A DNA stretch of 64,000 nt from Holophagaceae bacterium (lineage in GTDB: Bacteria; Acidobacteriota; Holophagae; Holophagales; Holophagaceae). Location of the stretch: assembly GCA_009783055.1 (NCBI GenBank), contig WRHW01000001.1, positions 1 through 64,000 on the forward strand, in the 5' to 3' direction. The position numbers were made by a program, and so were the translations under genes. Within the stretch, counting starts at the first letter, position 1. The number at the start of each line of letters is the position of its first letter. The notes beneath the pieces were generated by a model. It saw only the letters and a program-made list of their open reading frames with translations, was not told the DNA's origin and ran no database searches. Shown piece by piece: positions 1,150 to 9,197 of the stretch.

Positions 1150-2220
1150 CTAATGTTCTTTCTTTGTCTCTGCACTACCATGCTCAAGGCTCTTTAGCTC
1201 AGCAACTATTCCGGACACCAGGTGGCACTTTTGGGCATACGGGATGAATGCACTCTTAAAGCCATTGATAATAATCTCTTTAATTTCTTCTATGCTAAAA
1301 TCAAGCTCCTGATGCAATCTCCAATACTCGTCGCTCAGGGTTGTGTTGGTGATAAGCCTGTTATCTGTGTTTACAGTCACCCTCATCCCCAAGTCATAGA
1401 ATAGGCGGATGGGATGATCTTCGATCCGCTTGACCACCTTAGATTGCAAATTAGAACTAATGCACATCTCTAATGGGATTCTGTGGTCATTGACATAATT
1501 AACCAATTCTCCGTCCTCTATCAGGCGCACACCATGACCTATGCGGTGCGCCCCGCAGATATGTATCGCCTGATGAACGCTTTTGGGGCCGTATGTCTCG
1601 CCCGCGTGGAGAGTGCAATTGATATTATTTGACGATACTCTTTCAAAGGCATCCTTATACTTTTTGTCTGGAAAGCTCTCCTCGGCTCCTGCCAGGTCAA
1701 ATCCCACCACACCATGATTTTTATAGGCCACGGTGAGGGCGGCAAGGCGGTTTGCCTCTTCAGGGCTGATGTGACGGATGCCACAGATAATCACTCCAGT
1801 CTTAATGCCGTATTTACGCTCGGCTAGTTCTAGCCCCTCCAAAACTGCCGAAACAACTCCAGTTAGGTGCATTCCCTTTCGTAGGTGCAGTATCGGGCTG
1901 TAGCGCACCTCCATATACCTTATGTTTTCGTTTGCAGAATCCTCTGCCAGCTCAAATGCTACCCTAACCAAACTTTCGTAGGTTTGCATAACGGCCAGCG
2001 TTACGTCAAAGGCCTTGAGGTATTCAACTAAATTTTTGCAGTCACTACCCACTTGAACGATGGGACGCAATTTTTCTGGGGTATGGGCAGGCAATCTAAC
2101 CTTGTCTTTTTCTGCCAATTCCAGTATTGTCTCTATGCGAAGGCTACCGTCCAGGTGGACGTGGATGTCTGACTTTGGAAGTCGCTGTATGTCTTTCAAT
2201 GAAAGTTTATGCTTTGACAT
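1150..2220 (-). CDS. add: adenosine deaminase
   Basis: A 356-residue amidohydrolase-superfamily protein that would deaminate adenosine (or deoxyadenosine) to inosine in purine salvage. It carries the family signatures: the metal-binding HVHLDGSLR near residue 20, CTLHAGE near 205, RIGHG shortly after, and VTVNTDN near 290. The usual ending of the last motif is NTDDP; here it is NTDNR, a small departure that could affect specificity. The length is normal. A GGAGGG ribosome site precedes the start. It is divergent from the tautomerase-like gene at 2306. An adenine deaminase-like or other ADA-family specificity cannot be excluded. Confidence 0.85.
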   Translation of the reverse strand: MSKHKLSLKDIQRLPKSDIHVHLDGSLRIETILELAEKDKVRLPAHTPEKLRPIVQVGSDCKNLVEYLKAFDVTLAVMQTYESLVRVAFELAEDSANENIRYMEVRYSPILHLRKGMHLTGVVSAVLEGLELAERKYGIKTGVIICGIRHISPEEANRLAALTVAYKNHGVVGFDLAGAEESFPDKKYKDAFERVSSNNINCTLHAGETYGPKSVHQAIHICGAHRIGHGVRLIEDGELVNYVNDHRIPLEMCISSNLQSKVVKRIEDHPIRLFYDLGMRVTVNTDNRLITNTTLSDEYWRLHQELDFSIEEIKEIIINGFKSAFIPYAQKCHLVSGIVAELKSLEHGSAETKKEH

Positions 2221-2305
2221 TGCTTTTCCCTCCGGTCGTGGTAGACTACTTTCACTGTAAAGTATTTTACGCTTGAAGAATACATTTTACAAAGGAGACT
2301 CATCT

Positions 2306-2890
2306 ATGGCCATAGTCACTATTCAGACACCGCCATTAAATAATATACAAAAGAAGCGCATCGGCGAGAAGTTGCTTGATTCACTCCATAGTGAAGGTGT
2401 GCCAGCACCAACGGTTGTTGTGCTTTTTCGCTCGGAAGATTCTGACATCTACCTGGATGGAGGCTTATTGATAGAAGCCAAGCCACAACAGGTAGCGTCA
2501 ACTCCAAGCCATACAATTACAACCGTATCTAAGCCTGCTCCTCAGGTAATGTCCAGAGAGCAGACCCCAACACCTCGACCTACCCCTCCCCCTCCTCTGC
2601 AAAGGAGCATTCCTGATTATGCAGTGGTAAAAGAAAAGATCAGAAAGATGCTGGTAGATAGTGGTGGTATTTCCAGTTTTCAGGCACAGAGTGGCCTTGC
2701 CTTGAAGGGCTTTGAGGGTGCATCTGCATTGCTCCGCAAAGTATTTGCTGATCTGGAAGCAGAGGGCATCATAGAAAAACAAGGCCAAAAACGAGGCACC
2801 AGGTATGTTCTCAAAGGCATCACTACAACCCAGCCACAACAAGTAGCCCCTGTAATTCTTGTCAAGTCAGAAAAGCCCAGCGGCCAATAG
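2306..2890 (+). CDS. tautomerase-fold-like / winged-helix two-domain protein
   Basis: Start 2306 is set by AAAGGAG 8 nt upstream. The 194-residue product has three parts. Residues 1-55 (MAIVTIQTPPLNNIQKKRIGEKL...) resemble the 4-oxalocrotonate tautomerase fold. A Pro-rich linker (about 75-105) follows. The C-terminal part (about 110-180: VKEKIRKMLVDSGG...LEAEGIIEKQGQKRGTRYVL) looks like a winged-helix DNA-binding domain. Residue 2 is Ala where tautomerases have the catalytic Pro-1, so catalysis is doubtful. It lies 55 nt upstream of S46 peptidase A. It may be a regulator; no exact family is recognised. Confidence 0.55.
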   Translation: MAIVTIQTPPLNNIQKKRIGEKLLDSLHSEGVPAPTVVVLFRSEDSDIYLDGGLLIEAKPQQVASTPSHTITTVSKPAPQVMSREQTPTPRPTPPPPLQRSIPDYAVVKEKIRKMLVDSGGISSFQAQSGLALKGFEGASALLRKVFADLEAEGIIEKQGQKRGTRYVLKGITTTQPQQVAPVILVKSEKPSGQ

Positions 2891-2945: not shown

Positions 2946-5030
2946 ATGAAACTAAGACAACTTTTATCACTGTTAATCTGCGCCGGCTTTACGGGGATAG
3001 CCTCCGCTGATGAAGGCATGTGGACATTTGACAACCTGCCCATCGCCCAAATAAAGGCAAAGTATGGCTGGGCACCTGATCAAGCATGGCTGGATCACGT
3101 ACGCATGGCCTCCGTTAAATTTCCCGGAGGTTCCGGTGCCTTCGTAAGCCCGGATGGTTTGGCACTTACAAACCACCATGTCGCCCGTGGAGCCATATCC
3201 AGGGTAAGCACACGGGAAAATGACTACGTAAGAGATGGCTTTGTCGCCGCCTCAATGGAACAAGAAATCAAAATCCCCAACTACCAGTTGCGCGTATTGA
3301 TGACGAGCAAAGATGTTTCAGCTCAGGTAAAGGCCGTCGTTTTGCCAAACATGACCCCCGCTCAGGCAAACAAGGCCAGGCGAGATAAGCTGGCTGAAAT
3401 CAGAGCAGAAATAGCCAAAGACACCAGCTTATCCTACGATTCAGTCACTCTATATCAAGGGGGAGAATACTGGATATATGGATACAAAAATTTTTCAGAT
3501 GTAAGGCTTGTTGCCGCCCCGGAAATGCAGGTGGCTGACTTTGGGGGAGCACATGACAACTACACCTTCCCAAGGTGGGGGCTTGACTTTGCCCTCGTCA
3601 GGGTTTATGAAAACGACAAACCCTACAAACCCACCAATTACCTCCCCTGGACTAAGGGTGGCCTCAAGGCCAACGACCTGGTAATAGTATCAGGCCATCC
3701 AGGTTCTACATTTCGCCAACAGACCCTCGCCCAAATGGTGTTTGCCAGAGACTTTAATATTCCTGTAAGAATGCGCTCTCAAGAATGTCAAAAGGCCGCC
3801 ATACTTGAATATGGCAAAACAGGCCCTGATGCGGCCAGGACTGCACGAGAAGCTATCTGGGGCATAGACAACGGCTACAAGCGCATCGCAGGGCAATTAA
3901 TGGGACTCAAAGTTTCTGCCAACATAGAAAAAGTTGCTCGTGAAGAAAAGGAATTGCGAGAAAAAGTTAATGCAGACCCTGCCCTTAGGGCAAGAGTGGG
4001 CGGCAGTTGGGATGAAATTGAAAAAGCAGTCAAGCTAAACAAAGAAATACTGGACTATATCCAATTGTTGGACGGAAGAGGTTCCACCATTTTGGGAACT
4101 GCCATCAACGTGGCGCGTTGGATGTATGAATCCTCCTTACCAGCCTCCCAACGACCTGATATTTCAGATGAGTCCCTGAGGACAAGGAAGGCCGCACTGG
4201 AGCGCGTTCAGCAAAACATCAACATTGAGCTAGACATTGTAAGGCTCCAAGCCGGAATCCAGGAAGCCATCACTGCTCTTGGCCAGCAACATGAGATAGT
4301 AAAGATTTTGACCAACGGCAGACCCGCAGTCGAAGTTGCAAAAAAATTGCTGACAGAAACCCAATTTAACAACCCCGAATTTCGCAAGAACTTACTAGAC
4401 GGCGGAATCAAGGCTCTCGAATCCTCTACCGACCCCCTGATAGTGCTTGCACGAAACATAGATACAAAATCCAGACCATACCGCAAACAATTAGACGAAC
4501 AAGTGAACGCCGTCATTAGCGAACATGCACAACGCATAGCCACAGCAAGGTTTGCCATACACGGCAAGGCCAACTATCCAGACGCAACAGGCACACTACG
4601 CCTAACTTACGGGCCAGTGGCAACCTATCCAGCCAACGGCACACTCATGCAACCCTTCACCACATTTCATGGCCTACTGGATCGACACACTGGCTGGGGA
4701 GGCAACTCTGCAAATGCTGAAGGCGGCCTCTGGACACTACCGCAGAGGTGGCTAGACAAGCTGAGGGATGTAGAACTAACAACCCCCTACAACTTCACCT
4801 ATGCCTGCGACACCGTGGGAGGCAACTCAGGTAGCCCAGTGCTCAACGCCAAAGGCGAGGTTGTTGGCCTCAACTTTGATTCCAACATCGAAGGTCAGGC
4901 TGGCTACTACGTCTACGACGGCAGAACAAAGCGTAGCATTGCAGTAGACGCAAGAGCCATCACCGAATCCCTCAACAAAGTCATGGGCGGTGCCTGGATA
5001 GCCAAAGAACTATTAGACGCAGGGAAATAA
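2946..5030 (+). CDS. S46 family dipeptidyl-peptidase (copy A)
   Basis: A 694-residue secreted serine peptidase of family S46 (DPP7/DPP11 type), which removes dipeptides from oligopeptides in the periplasm. Start 2946 follows an AGGGGAT site and gives a clean signal peptide (MKLRQLLSLLICAGFTGIASA). DEGMWTFDNLP opens the mature chain. Triad regions are visible: His in LTNHHVARG (near 76), Asp in HDNYTFPRW (near 203), Ser in GGNSGSPVLN (near 627). The loop after the Ser reads GLNFDSN, with Ser where copies B and C have Gly. That position is near the S1 specificity residue (Gly in DPP7, Arg in DPP11), so preference may differ. Paralogues are at 42382 and 45655. Confidence 0.9.
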   Translation: MKLRQLLSLLICAGFTGIASADEGMWTFDNLPIAQIKAKYGWAPDQAWLDHVRMASVKFPGGSGAFVSPDGLALTNHHVARGAISRVSTRENDYVRDGFVAASMEQEIKIPNYQLRVLMTSKDVSAQVKAVVLPNMTPAQANKARRDKLAEIRAEIAKDTSLSYDSVTLYQGGEYWIYGYKNFSDVRLVAAPEMQVADFGGAHDNYTFPRWGLDFALVRVYENDKPYKPTNYLPWTKGGLKANDLVIVSGHPGSTFRQQTLAQMVFARDFNIPVRMRSQECQKAAILEYGKTGPDAARTAREAIWGIDNGYKRIAGQLMGLKVSANIEKVAREEKELREKVNADPALRARVGGSWDEIEKAVKLNKEILDYIQLLDGRGSTILGTAINVARWMYESSLPASQRPDISDESLRTRKAALERVQQNINIELDIVRLQAGIQEAITALGQQHEIVKILTNGRPAVEVAKKLLTETQFNNPEFRKNLLDGGIKALESSTDPLIVLARNIDTKSRPYRKQLDEQVNAVISEHAQRIATARFAIHGKANYPDATGTLRLTYGPVATYPANGTLMQPFTTFHGLLDRHTGWGGNSANAEGGLWTLPQRWLDKLRDVELTTPYNFTYACDTVGGNSGSPVLNAKGEVVGLNFDSNIEGQAGYYVYDGRTKRSIAVDARAITESLNKVMGGAWIAKELLDAGK

Positions 5031-5066: not shown

Positions 5067-8000
5067 TTATATGCAGGTAATGTCAGCATCAAAAGTGCCT
5101 GCTCTGTAGGCGCGTAAATAGTTCATAACAAGGCTGGCGTATTGTGGCCTTTCCCTATTCCAAATTGGGAAAGTGTCGAGTATGTATTGGATTGTGTTTT
5201 CATCTTCTTTTGAGTCAAAGCCATAGGCAAGGAAAAACAGGGCATCGAGTTGGGCTTGTAGCGTGAGGCGGCGTTTTTCGTCCCATTTATATGGCTTGCC
5301 TTTGTATCCATAAGCAGTGGCCATTGGCTTGAGTGCGTCGCAGGTATAGCTCAACTCAAAGGCGCGTGGAGCTATTAGCGATTCCCAACTATGGCCGTGT
5401 ATTGTTTGGGAATAGAAGTCTGGGGGCAGGGCTGGGAGTTGTTCAATGATATATAGCGACAAATGGGATGTTTGGACTTTTTGCCTTGCCACAAAGTCTT
5501 TTACAATAGAGGAATGATCTGCCAGAAAGCATAATCTGAGATTATGACCAATAGTTTCGGGGAATACAAAAAATGGCAGGGTGTTTCCCAAAGCACTATA
5601 AGGCACTGGCGCAGAGACAATAGTCCTAAAGTTAGTCACATTTGTAATATCACGGAAAACAAATAACCATGGTTGACGCTTTGGGTGCTTCTGCATTAGC
5701 TCATCTTCAAGTATGTAGTACTGTGGTGCGGTGAAAAATCTTGGATCAGTAAGTGATTCGCCAAGGGTGGCATTTGCTGACGATTTGTTATGAATGTTGT
5801 CTAGGTTGATCCTAATGCTTGCATAACGGGGATTCCAAAGGTTTACCATTTTCCCTTCAAGCAATGGTACATACCGCCCTTTTGGGGAATTGTAGGTAGG
5901 CAAGCCATCTTTTTTTTCTGGCCAAGCACCAATCTGTTCCAGTTGGGACTTCGTCTTGAAAAGCCCGCTGTCATTAGTCATATGGAATAGTGTTTTGTAT
6001 ACCACTCCCCAAGGATTGTCTTTTGGTTGACCATATTCTAGAGGTGTATGCTTTATCAGTATTGGCACTTTTTCATATATTCGTCTTGTAATTTCTAAAT
6101 CCGTATTCGTCCTGAATACGGGGCATGTCTTGGTGTTCGGATTTAATAGGTCAAAATCTGTGGGTTTGAGGTGCAGGGTGCGCTCATCAATTTCTTCTAT
6201 CCGTTGCAGAAAGCTGGCCGTTGGGATGTATTGGGCATCGTTGTCATTTCCTGACAGCCCAATTAGAGAAAACTTGAATTGGGCGTGGATGTCTGGGAAC
6301 CAATACTTTTTGTTTTCAAAATCATATATGAATGAAAGCCTTTTTTCCGACACCATTTGTCGAAAAAATAGTGCGCTACTTGCATCTGTGCAAATGCCAG
6401 ATGGCACTATAAATCCAGCTTTGCCAGTTTTATTAATTAAACCTAAAGCTCTTTCAACTATCAGACCATATAGGTTTGTGTCGCCGCCTCCAAGCAGGGG
6501 ATATGGCGAATCCTTGGCATGGCAATAATCAAGAAATTGCTGTCTGAGATGACCGGCACGTTGATAATCGTCCCATATCTGTGGCTCATCTGTTGGCAAC
6601 ATCTCAATGGCCTTTTTCCGCATCGCCTGACTTTGCATCAGAGCAATGTGCGGCATTACTTTCTCAAAATATTCATTTTCTTGTAATTTTATCCTCTCCC
6701 ACGGGGGATTAGTTATTACTGCATCGAAGCCCATGTTTTTTTTATTTCTCACTCCGGGATACAGAACAGTTGGAAAGGCAAGTTCCCAATGAAAAAACGC
6801 ATGGTTTGTGCGGTCTTCGATGATATTTTTTATACATGCGTCTAGATGCTCGATGGCCGGTTCCACCTTAGTTTCGGGCGAGGTAATGCGAGATAAAAGG
6901 TTTTCAAATGCGGTGTTGTCAGCCAAAAGTGTTTTGACTATATCAATTGTTTTTCGATTTTTTCCTGTCCCAACAATTTGGGGTTTGTTAGAAAAACCGC
7001 GACTGGTCACACTATCTAACATGATGCGGATGGTCTTAAGTGTCTGTTCTACGTCTGCATATATTTGTTTTGACTGCTCTACTTGTTCTTTGGTTGCATC
7101 TGATAGCCCCATTAGGTTTGACAATTCTTTGATGATCGATTGTGGCCGGAATTTTAATTCGTCTGTAGACATCATGTTGGTTTCTATACCGCTACTGGTT
7201 ACATCTTCGTAGTCTGCTATGTTTGCCCCGATTAGGCTGTTGCCGCACTTTAGGTGGTGGTCAAGAAAACTTAATGGTGCGCCAAGGGTAAAGCTATCTA
7301 GCCAGAGGCTGAGTTTTGCAAGCTCTACTGCCAAGGGGTTGATGTCTACTCCAAAAAGGCATCTCTTCATTAGTAGGCGTTTTAGGAGGTTGAGGTCGTC
7401 TAATTCGGGTTGGATTCGTTTGCAGGAGTCTGATGACATGCCTTGGTCTTTGAGTGAGCCTATTATGTCTGTTCTCTGTTGGCGCAGTAATTTCATAACA
7501 GGATGTTCTTTTGAACTCTTTTTTTGTATTAGTTCATCCTGATGTGAGGCAAGTATTGCAATTATTTTTTCTGTTATGAAGTCTAATGCTGACACAAGAA
7601 AATGACCGGAACCCATTGATGGGTCGAGTACATTTATTTCGAGCAGTTGGTCAAGAATTTCGGCTGATAGTAGCTCTTGTTGCTTTTTATCTTTGCACTT
7701 TAGCCATTGAGCCAGGATTGCGTCTGCTTTTGTTTTACGCTCTTCTAAGATTGGCTCTAATGTATTTTTTACTAAAAATGATACAAGGTCTTCATGTGTG
7801 TAGTACGAGGCTGTATTTCTGCGAGCGTAACTATCATGGGTGATTTCAAATGATTCGCCTGTCTGCACTAGTTTGTAGTCTAGCAAACCTTCATAAAGTG
7901 ATCCTAGTTGCCTTACGCCCAGGTCTTTGAAGTCGATCATTGAATATTCGCCTTCTCTTCCGAGGGCCAGACTGAGGCTATTTATTGCTGGTATCAGGTC

Positions 8001-9197
8001 TGAATCATATATCTTTAGCTGGCTAAGCAGGGGATAGTTTTTGGGGTCAAATAGGCCGCCGTTGTAGTAGGGTAGTTCTAATACGGGGTCGCCACTGTTG
8101 ATTAACTCGAAAAGTGTGTTGAGGTAGTTCCATTTGTGTGGCACTCGCCCTTTTGGTGCTGTGTGGGTTTCTTGTAGTTCTCTTCTTAACTCGGTGAGGC
8201 TAACTTCGCGATAATATTGCTGGTTTACGGGGAGCAAGCCTTTATCTTCGGCATAAAAAAGAAATAGCAAACGGAATAATAGCACTATGGTATTGGCTTC
8301 TAGTGTTTCTATTGTTTTTATTGGTGTGTCGGCAATTGCTTTGCTGGTTTGCCCTGTCCCCCTCCATAGGCCATTAGCTAGTTGGACAAATACGCCTTCT
8401 CTTCCATAAATAACGCTTTCAAGCGAATTGCCTATTTCAATTGCATATTTGTGGGATTCTTCTTTGATTATGTCTAACTGGCATTTGTTGTCGGGTTGGC
8501 GATGAAAGGCTTTTGCTGAGAAAAGCATGAGGAAATATCTAAATCTTGCATAAGGGTCTTCTTTTGTGCCTGTGTAGGCTATTAGGTCTTCTAAGTCTAT
8601 TTCCAGATAGTAATAACTTCTGTTGGCAGAGTATTGGCAGTAGAGCCGCCATTGTTTACCATTTGTCAGGATTGCCCATTTGATTTGGTTATTTGATAAA
8701 ACATGTGCTTTGTCTAAGTAGGTGTTGATTTGCAATACTGGGTTTTGGCCAGTTTCTTCTAAGGCTGATTTTTTTAGGGGGCAATTCCAATACTTTGCTT
8801 CCATGATGGTAATGGCTCTGGTATAAAAAGCCCCCATGTCTTTTTGGTTGTATGCTGTTACTGCGTCTATGCGAGTTTGCTCGTCATAGAACAGGGCATA
8901 ATCGGGTGTGCCGGATTTGACGGTGGTTTCCCTTTTGAATGTGAAGCCAAGCATTTCTGCTACCTTGCTTATCCATTCGCTTCTTGTATCTTCTTCGTTT
9001 TTTTCTATCCTCGCCTTTGAGTAGGATATATATAGGGCTTTGAGCTTTTGATGGATTTCACGGCATTTTTCTTCATCCCAGTATTGGAAGGCTGGTGTGG
9101 AGGTTATTCGCTCAAGAAGATAGTGGTCTGAAAATAGCCCAGTGTTGATAAATGGGTCTTCGGAGAATATTTTGAGTTGGTAGGATTCGGTGGTCAT
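5067..9197 (-). CDS. type IIG restriction-modification enzyme (Eco57I-like)
   Basis: A 1376-residue single-chain restriction and adenine-methylation enzyme. A PD-(D/E)XK-like nuclease core is visible in the N-terminus (TPDYALFYDE near 100, then IMEAKYW near 132). A helical connector follows, then the gamma-class N6A methylase with motif I VLDPSMGSGHFL near 525 and motif IV ITNPPWERI near 829. A C-terminal target-recognition region (about 950-1350) completes it. The length suits the family, and the frame is intact. It stands alone between S46 peptidase A (convergent) and a TA pair (divergent), as expected for a self-contained system. The recognition sequence cannot be read from the sequence. 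Confidence 0.85.
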   Translation of the reverse strand: MTTESYQLKIFSEDPFINTGLFSDHYLLERITSTPAFQYWDEEKCREIHQKLKALYISYSKARIEKNEEDTRSEWISKVAEMLGFTFKRETTVKSGTPDYALFYDEQTRIDAVTAYNQKDMGAFYTRAITIMEAKYWNCPLKKSALEETGQNPVLQINTYLDKAHVLSNNQIKWAILTNGKQWRLYCQYSANRSYYYLEIDLEDLIAYTGTKEDPYARFRYFLMLFSAKAFHRQPDNKCQLDIIKEESHKYAIEIGNSLESVIYGREGVFVQLANGLWRGTGQTSKAIADTPIKTIETLEANTIVLLFRLLFLFYAEDKGLLPVNQQYYREVSLTELRRELQETHTAPKGRVPHKWNYLNTLFELINSGDPVLELPYYNGGLFDPKNYPLLSQLKIYDSDLIPAINSLSLALGREGEYSMIDFKDLGVRQLGSLYEGLLDYKLVQTGESFEITHDSYARRNTASYYTHEDLVSFLVKNTLEPILEERKTKADAILAQWLKCKDKKQQELLSAEILDQLLEINVLDPSMGSGHFLVSALDFITEKIIAILASHQDELIQKKSSKEHPVMKLLRQQRTDIIGSLKDQGMSSDSCKRIQPELDDLNLLKRLLMKRCLFGVDINPLAVELAKLSLWLDSFTLGAPLSFLDHHLKCGNSLIGANIADYEDVTSSGIETNMMSTDELKFRPQSIIKELSNLMGLSDATKEQVEQSKQIYADVEQTLKTIRIMLDSVTSRGFSNKPQIVGTGKNRKTIDIVKTLLADNTAFENLLSRITSPETKVEPAIEHLDACIKNIIEDRTNHAFFHWELAFPTVLYPGVRNKKNMGFDAVITNPPWERIKLQENEYFEKVMPHIALMQSQAMRKKAIEMLPTDEPQIWDDYQRAGHLRQQFLDYCHAKDSPYPLLGGGDTNLYGLIVERALGLINKTGKAGFIVPSGICTDASSALFFRQMVSEKRLSFIYDFENKKYWFPDIHAQFKFSLIGLSGNDNDAQYIPTASFLQRIEEIDERTLHLKPTDFDLLNPNTKTCPVFRTNTDLEITRRIYEKVPILIKHTPLEYGQPKDNPWGVVYKTLFHMTNDSGLFKTKSQLEQIGAWPEKKDGLPTYNSPKGRYVPLLEGKMVNLWNPRYASIRINLDNIHNKSSANATLGESLTDPRFFTAPQYYILEDELMQKHPKRQPWLFVFRDITNVTNFRTIVSAPVPYSALGNTLPFFVFPETIGHNLRLCFLADHSSIVKDFVARQKVQTSHLSLYIIEQLPALPPDFYSQTIHGHSWESLIAPRAFELSYTCDALKPMATAYGYKGKPYKWDEKRRLTLQAQLDALFFLAYGFDSKEDENTIQYILDTFPIWNRERPQYASLVMNYLRAYRAGTFDADITCI

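Follow-up and report, generated by a model that had tools for sequence, protein, structure and literature searches.

What does a tautomerase-like domain do at the head of a protein that ends in a DNA-binding-like domain? The question is raised by a gene in the window, the whole stretch of 64,000 nucleotides of a Holophagaceae bacterium that was analysed here (assembly GCA_009783055.1, contig WRHW01000001.1). A preliminary description of this DNA had claimed for the encoded protein a tautomerase-like first domain (residues 1-55) with Ala in place of the catalytic Pro-1, a Pro-rich linker and a DNA-binding-like second domain, and had suggested that the fold serves as a ligand-sensing or assembly module of a regulator, beside an S46 peptidase. 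The features concerned are collected in table 1.

Table 1. Fusion gene, its parts and its immediate neighbours in the window
Feature	Position	Strand	Remarks
Putative pseudo-tautomerase/winged-helix gene	2306..2890	+	194 aa + stop (stop codon 2888-2890), ATG start
Ribosome-binding site AAAGGAG	2291..2297	+	Read from sequence
Predicted tautomerase-fold domain, residues 1-56	2306..2473	+	Structure model, fold search, profile comparison
Pro-rich linker, residues 57-104	2474..2617	+	Low model confidence, pLDDT about 49-66
Predicted winged helix, residues 105-171	2618..2818	+	Invariant wing G160, K-R-G-T-R-Y 162-167
Conserved C-terminal tail (I/K)-L-V-K, residues 184-187	2855..2866	+	Alignment
Adenosine deaminase	1150..2220	-	Divergent, 85 bp from gene; family-wide neighbourhood member
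S46 peptidase	2946..5030	+	55 bp downstream; Peptidase_S46 E 5.6e-172

Domain architecture of the fusion protein

A longer start at TTG 2273 is possible, but the alignment of relatives begins at the ATG. No sigma-70-like site was found ahead of the gene on the + strand in a promoter scan of the window. In the intergenic regions of 31 of 50 loci, inspected by eye only, a TTTTAC-spacer-TATTAT-like promoter and, ahead of the ribosome site, an AT-rich GTATACATA element recurred at Geothrix-like loci. A chance open reading frame was ruled out by the same architecture in 53 of 61 family genomes and by dN/dS; both domains are under similar purifying selection (0.295 for the N-terminal domain and 0.257 for the winged helix, 19 pairs).

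The tautomerase-like reading of the N terminus, for which structure prediction and a fold search had been proposed as the check, was confirmed. In the predicted protein, this region has strands at residues 2-8, 37-43, 48-50 and 53-55 and a helix at 13-29. Modelled alone (62 residues, 28 sequences), the domain reached an AlphaFold pLDDT of 86.6 and a pTM of 0.63. It shows the beta-alpha-beta fold with C-terminal hairpin of the 4-OT subgroup of the tautomerase superfamily, the absence of which would have refuted the first reading. All 50 Foldseek matches listed from the PDB belonged to this superfamily, the best of them being 3m20 DmpI (E 0.019, TMq 0.62, rmsd 3.2). With VIA-align the best match was 1s0y (Z 6.4, rmsd 2.9, 55 aligned), and the 50 matches listed were confined to the tautomerase superfamily, MIF and designed cages built on a fold of this kind. 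The scores are modest because the domain is small, and the Foldseek E-values are weak even at their best. A relationship to known members of the 4-OT subgroup was also found at the level of sequence profiles. For this comparison 13 tautomerases native to Holophagaceae were picked from a PF01361 search, out of 17 loci read; against them, hhalign aligned the family profile from Met-1 over 53 columns with a probability of 94.1 and a score of 37.8, while two sets of 200 column shuffles scored at most 16.3 and the reversed profile 9.6. Chance beta-alpha-beta resemblance was ruled out by the shuffles, the reversed control and the fold search, and the N-terminal 56 residues are, as modelled, a 4-OT tautomerase fold.

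Single sequences gave only weak matches among 23 members: NCBIfam DmpI in 8 (best E 4e-4), Pfam Tautomerase_3 in 9 and Tautomerase PF01361 in 4 (best E 0.0045). The window protein itself matched no tautomerase model of Pfam or NCBIfam, and two family loci (G003 and G014) stayed below 22 bits in a genome search and did not pass the curated Pfam Tautomerase cut-off. A sequence search of solved structures returned 2 chance-level matches for the full profile and 38 for the N-domain profile, no tautomerase among them, and PHROGs gave no informative match to the fusion family.

The strands carry a further sign. At residues 3, 4, 6 and 37-41, a large hydrophobic side chain is present in 94-100% of 62 rows, and both faces of strands 1 and 2 are hydrophobic. 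Since a lone two-layer domain needs no hydrophobics on both sheet faces, this may be taken as a sign of an oligomer in which the sheet would be buried. A partner in a tautomerase heterohexamer is unlikely in the window's genome, where PF01361 matched no further protein (best E 0.644).

The remaining parts of the claimed architecture were likewise present in the prediction. A low-confidence stretch rich in Pro separates the two domains, and the second domain, modelled with confidence, has the winged-helix fold of DNA-binding proteins, with predicted helices at residues 105-119, 124-130 and 139-152 and strands at 121-123, 156-159 and 166-169. Its best structure match was 3lmm (Z 10.4, rmsd 1.4, 65 aligned), but many MarR/ArsR/Fur-type and Z-alpha domains scored within 1-2 Z units of it, so no winged-helix subfamily is implied. 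In fold, the domain resembles winged helices of the MarR/ArsR/Fur type and the one at the C terminus of 3lmm (Z 8.8-10.4, about 57-77 residues); it differs in that the window protein reaches no family-model cut-off and in that the fusion would oligomerise through another domain. None of the Pfam and NCBIfam HTH models passed its cut-off for the window protein, and HTH matches among the 23 members were weak (best E 0.0045). Invariant in 23 aligned members were S123, S124, F125, R144, G160, K162-Y167, L185 and K187. The basic residues K162, R163 and R166 of the wing and R144 of the third helix are among them, but the segment is about neutral (net charge -2 to +4 in 59 of 62 rows), and it could therefore bind protein rather than DNA. 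As a domain layout, the predicted architecture agrees with the regulator-like one first described.

Active-site residues in the fusion family

Ala-2 does occupy the Pro-1 position of the window protein, and proline is absent there from 52 of 62 distinct full-length relatives (A 48, P 10, S 3, T 1). In one respect the first reading needs to be corrected: what defines the family is not this substitution. On a tree computed with the first two residues left out, and including two side-family rows that both carry Pro, the Pro-2 state needs 5 changes, of which at least 3 are forced by well-supported branches; residue 2 has thus changed at least 3-5 times within the family. This alternation of P, A, S and T rules out Pro-1 loss as the defining event. 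Judged from the alignment, the feature constant across the family is instead the absence of the Arg-11 and Arg-39 equivalents. The 4-OT Arg-11 position holds L in 61 members and F in 1 (Leu-11 in the window protein), and the Arg-39 position V in 58, I in 3 and A in 1 (Val-38), in a register taken from the alignment with the native Holophagaceae tautomerases. This loss alone is no proof of inactivity, because several Pro-1-bearing, DmpI-like tautomerases native to Holophagaceae also lack Arg-11, Arg-39 or both. Taken together, the residues suggest that the fusion protein is likely to be catalytically inactive, and a pseudo-enzyme platform is the best reading of it.

When A, P, S or T follows, the initiator Met is normally cleaved off. 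Because all residue-2 states are small residues that permit this removal, the old pocket may still be important in its geometry. It could even be supposed that the protein, in spite of a non-proline N-terminus, is an active enzyme, its mature Ala, Ser, Thr or Pro offering the free amino group as base and its winged helix serving as a partner-binding or gene-linked module. All 62 members carry a residue 2 compatible with such a group, 10 of them still Pro, and the N-terminal amino group is raised as a possible base or acid by Davidson et al. (PMC5818174). However, all 62 have aliphatic residues in place of Arg-11 and Arg-39, apart from a single Phe, whereas known Pro-1-less members are said in the same paper to have kept the rest of their subgroup's active-site residues, and the repeated changes at residue 2 argue against a fixed catalytic group. 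We consider an active enzyme improbable.

Davidson et al. count 346 Pro-1-less members, 294 in the MSAD subgroup and 13 in the 4-OT subgroup, which are uncharacterised, and PMC11641302 gives the same 346 among 11,395 members. With these the fusion family shares the tautomerase fold and Ser or Ala for Pro-1; it differs from them in its active-site residues, and most of them belong to MSAD. The family is like the 4-OT/DmpI subgroup in the beta-alpha-beta unit and hairpin over residues 1-56, in the profile relationship and in the Pro-2 of 10 relatives, but most relatives lack Pro-1 and all carry a linker and a winged helix.

Distribution, phage copy and gene neighbourhood

The fusion gene was found in 53 of the 61 Holophagaceae genomes (G000-G060), with one gene per genome, two of the 53 showing pieces or a fragment; cultured Geothrix strains are among the carriers, and the nearest congener of the window among the genomes compared is G003. 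Eight genomes had no copy: G010, G018 and G025, which belong to one genus and measure 0.9-1.2 Mb; G013 and G008, in which the contig stops at the Fur side of the locus or close to it; and G001, G002 and G058, which are 64-78% complete. In the three genomes of 0.9-1.2 Mb (L183, L184 and L185) the locus M24 peptidase, Fur, adenosine deaminase, DHH phosphoesterase and GTP cyclohydrolase II is intact and the fusion gene is missing between M24 and Fur; the absence is therefore real.

Neither 39 genomes from outside the family (best E 0.04) nor 357 genomes elsewhere in the phylum yielded a full-length relative. The latter search matched 36 of 39 family genomes and gave partial matches in 9 of the 357, mainly to the winged helix (best E 2.9e-5). 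A wider scan of genome contigs also found no full-length relative outside the family; the winged-helix part alone matched at 4 of 59 loci, and the three of these that were read encode unrelated proteins (a restriction-type methylase, a lysine/alanine-rich protein and a probable Fic-type protein, named by eye). Among the cellular lineages searched, the fusion family is specific to Holophagaceae. Two genomes of one genus (G011 and G019) contain a second member, at L125:2378-2842 (+) and L130:2942-3385 (+), just upstream of rpsF-like and rpsR-like genes (names by eye); it is shorter (147-154 aa), carries Pro-2 and lacks the tautomerase hairpin.

A phage has captured a copy of the fusion gene. The IMG/VR contig IMGVR_UViG_3300028327_000538 (96,165 bp) encodes a 169-aa protein that shares 54% identity with the window protein across 170 columns but lacks the conserved (I/K)LVK tail. 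The contig is that of a tailed phage, with a terminase large subunit (E 7.1e-59), a head maturation protease, an endolysin and an RNA ligase; of 10 contig proteins compared with PHROGs, these four were identified as named, 1 matched a regulator family and 4 had no match. Phage copy, window protein and G003 member formed one clade (100/100), and still did so when four long-branch rows were omitted. The contig may be chimeric, but the copy stands between a SocA/Panacea gene and, at a distance of 81 bp, a divergently oriented HTH_3 regulator, and for this reason does not look like a host flank. A first IMG/VR scan with the single window protein missed the copy, and repeat scans of viral sets found no IMG/VR contig beyond this one. 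Phage GenBank records gave no match to a Geothrix member, and plasmids none to the window protein; with one viral contig only, these results speak against a mobile element. Just beside the phage copy lies a GC-rich repeat of 45-49 bp, translated within several ORFs into a run rich in Ser and Gly, whose 27-base core occurs in four exact copies, two per orientation (G426 contig 75130-77569; L189:15121-17573); within 3 mismatches, the core was absent from four genomes of the window's genus.

The neighbourhood was investigated at 54 loci (the window and 53 others), 46 of them with at least 3 kb upstream. A divergent Fur-family gene (FUR Pfam E 4.1e-34) adjoined the fusion gene in 45 of these 46, about 75-175 bp away, the sole exception being L071, the window's congener. 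Within 3 kb, adenosine deaminase was present in 44 and DHH phosphoesterase in 42 (identities by Pfam), the old order being divergent Fur, adenosine deaminase, DHH phosphoesterase and GTP cyclohydrolase II. The ancestral neighbour is thus a divergent Fur-family regulator, not the S46 peptidase. In the window there is no Fur gene at this place, and adenosine deaminase is directly divergent from the fusion gene. Elsewhere in the window, DUF4160, DUF2442 and a small ORF weakly resembling a BrnA antitoxin stand in a row at 142-957, which looks like a small toxin-antitoxin-type cluster, and an Eco57I/MmeI-like restriction-modification protein of 1376 aa is encoded at 5067-9197 (-).

The adjacency of the S46 peptidase, first noted in the window, is real; the functional link suggested with it was not supported. 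A dedicated regulator of the peptidase would fit a gene on the same strand with no + strand terminator found in between, and S46 also lies downstream in L071. It was downstream at none of the other loci scanned, so the role of the family cannot depend on it, and an adjacency confined to the window and L071 looks recent. This rejects S46 as a conserved partner; it is probably not part of the system, and a dedicated S46 regulator is very hard to credit. A co-regulator acting with the neighbouring Fur-family protein, for instance at a common divergent operator region, would be in line with the pairing just described. But the two genes are separable both ways, as each occurs without the other: no Fur of this type was found at E 0.001 in the four genomes of the window's genus (G000-G003, of which two are 64-69% complete), yet the fusion gene is retained in G000 and G003, and three g8 genomes keep Fur and its flanks without the fusion gene. 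This counts against an obligate Fur partner, and we regard a Fur co-regulator as quite improbable.

Possible roles of the fusion protein

We consider it rather probable that the fusion protein is a lineage-specific, oligomeric transcription regulator on a catalytically dead tautomerase core. This reading is favoured because of the two folds, the flexible linker, the catalytic loss and the divergent pairing with regulators in both host and phage. A 4-OT-type N-terminal domain, its catalytic residues lost, would have been retained for assembly, forming a core that, like 4-OT itself, is probably trimeric or hexameric. Such a core would display several winged helices on flexible Pro-rich tethers, and multivalent DNA binding is proposed for this reason. 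Autoregulation from the divergent promoter region may be added, as may a ligand in the old active-site pocket. We infer the oligomerisation, DNA binding and targets of the regulator. A counterpoint to it is that three streamlined genomes do without the gene.

The single copy in 53 of 61 genomes, the long, low-confidence linker and the phage copy would also suit a nucleoid-associated DNA organiser, which would bridge DNA by means of several weak winged helices on an oligomeric core; phages take up host nucleoid proteins. However, the winged helix is about neutral, unlike most nucleoid proteins, and divergent pairing with Fur and, in the phage, with HTH_3 is more typical of specific regulators. 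A nucleoid protein therefore seems unlikely to us. It is somewhat easier to imagine, although still doubtful, that a dead hexamer with up to six winged helices is a DNA-binding hub, either a global regulator or a DNA organiser particular to Holophagaceae, and that phage copies without the tail seize or block host regulation.

The fusion is a new architecture of a known superfamily. Our literature search found no fusion of a tautomerase with a winged helix, a DNA-binding domain or an HTH, most subscription journals being outside its scope; no DNA-binding fusion was seen in the passages of PMC5818174 consulted, the term 'DNA-binding' being absent from its text, and a search joining Holophagaceae, Geothrix and tautomerase gave no mention of a tautomerase among its top matches. 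The 4OT-SnoaL fusion (9mua, 9mup) is alike in that an N-terminal 4-OT domain (aligned chain residues 1-63 of 186) is followed by a further domain, but by title its partner is SnoaL, not a winged helix, and one entry is titled as 3-bromopropiolate treated.

Our results suggest that an old enzyme fold is now the assembly core of a gene regulator. The family offers a clean example of an enzyme fold, now joined to a winged helix, that seems to have outlasted catalysis. The fusion has been kept through a bacterial family with cultured members and was also taken by a phage, and the non-enzymatic use of the tautomerase fold becomes directly testable in it.
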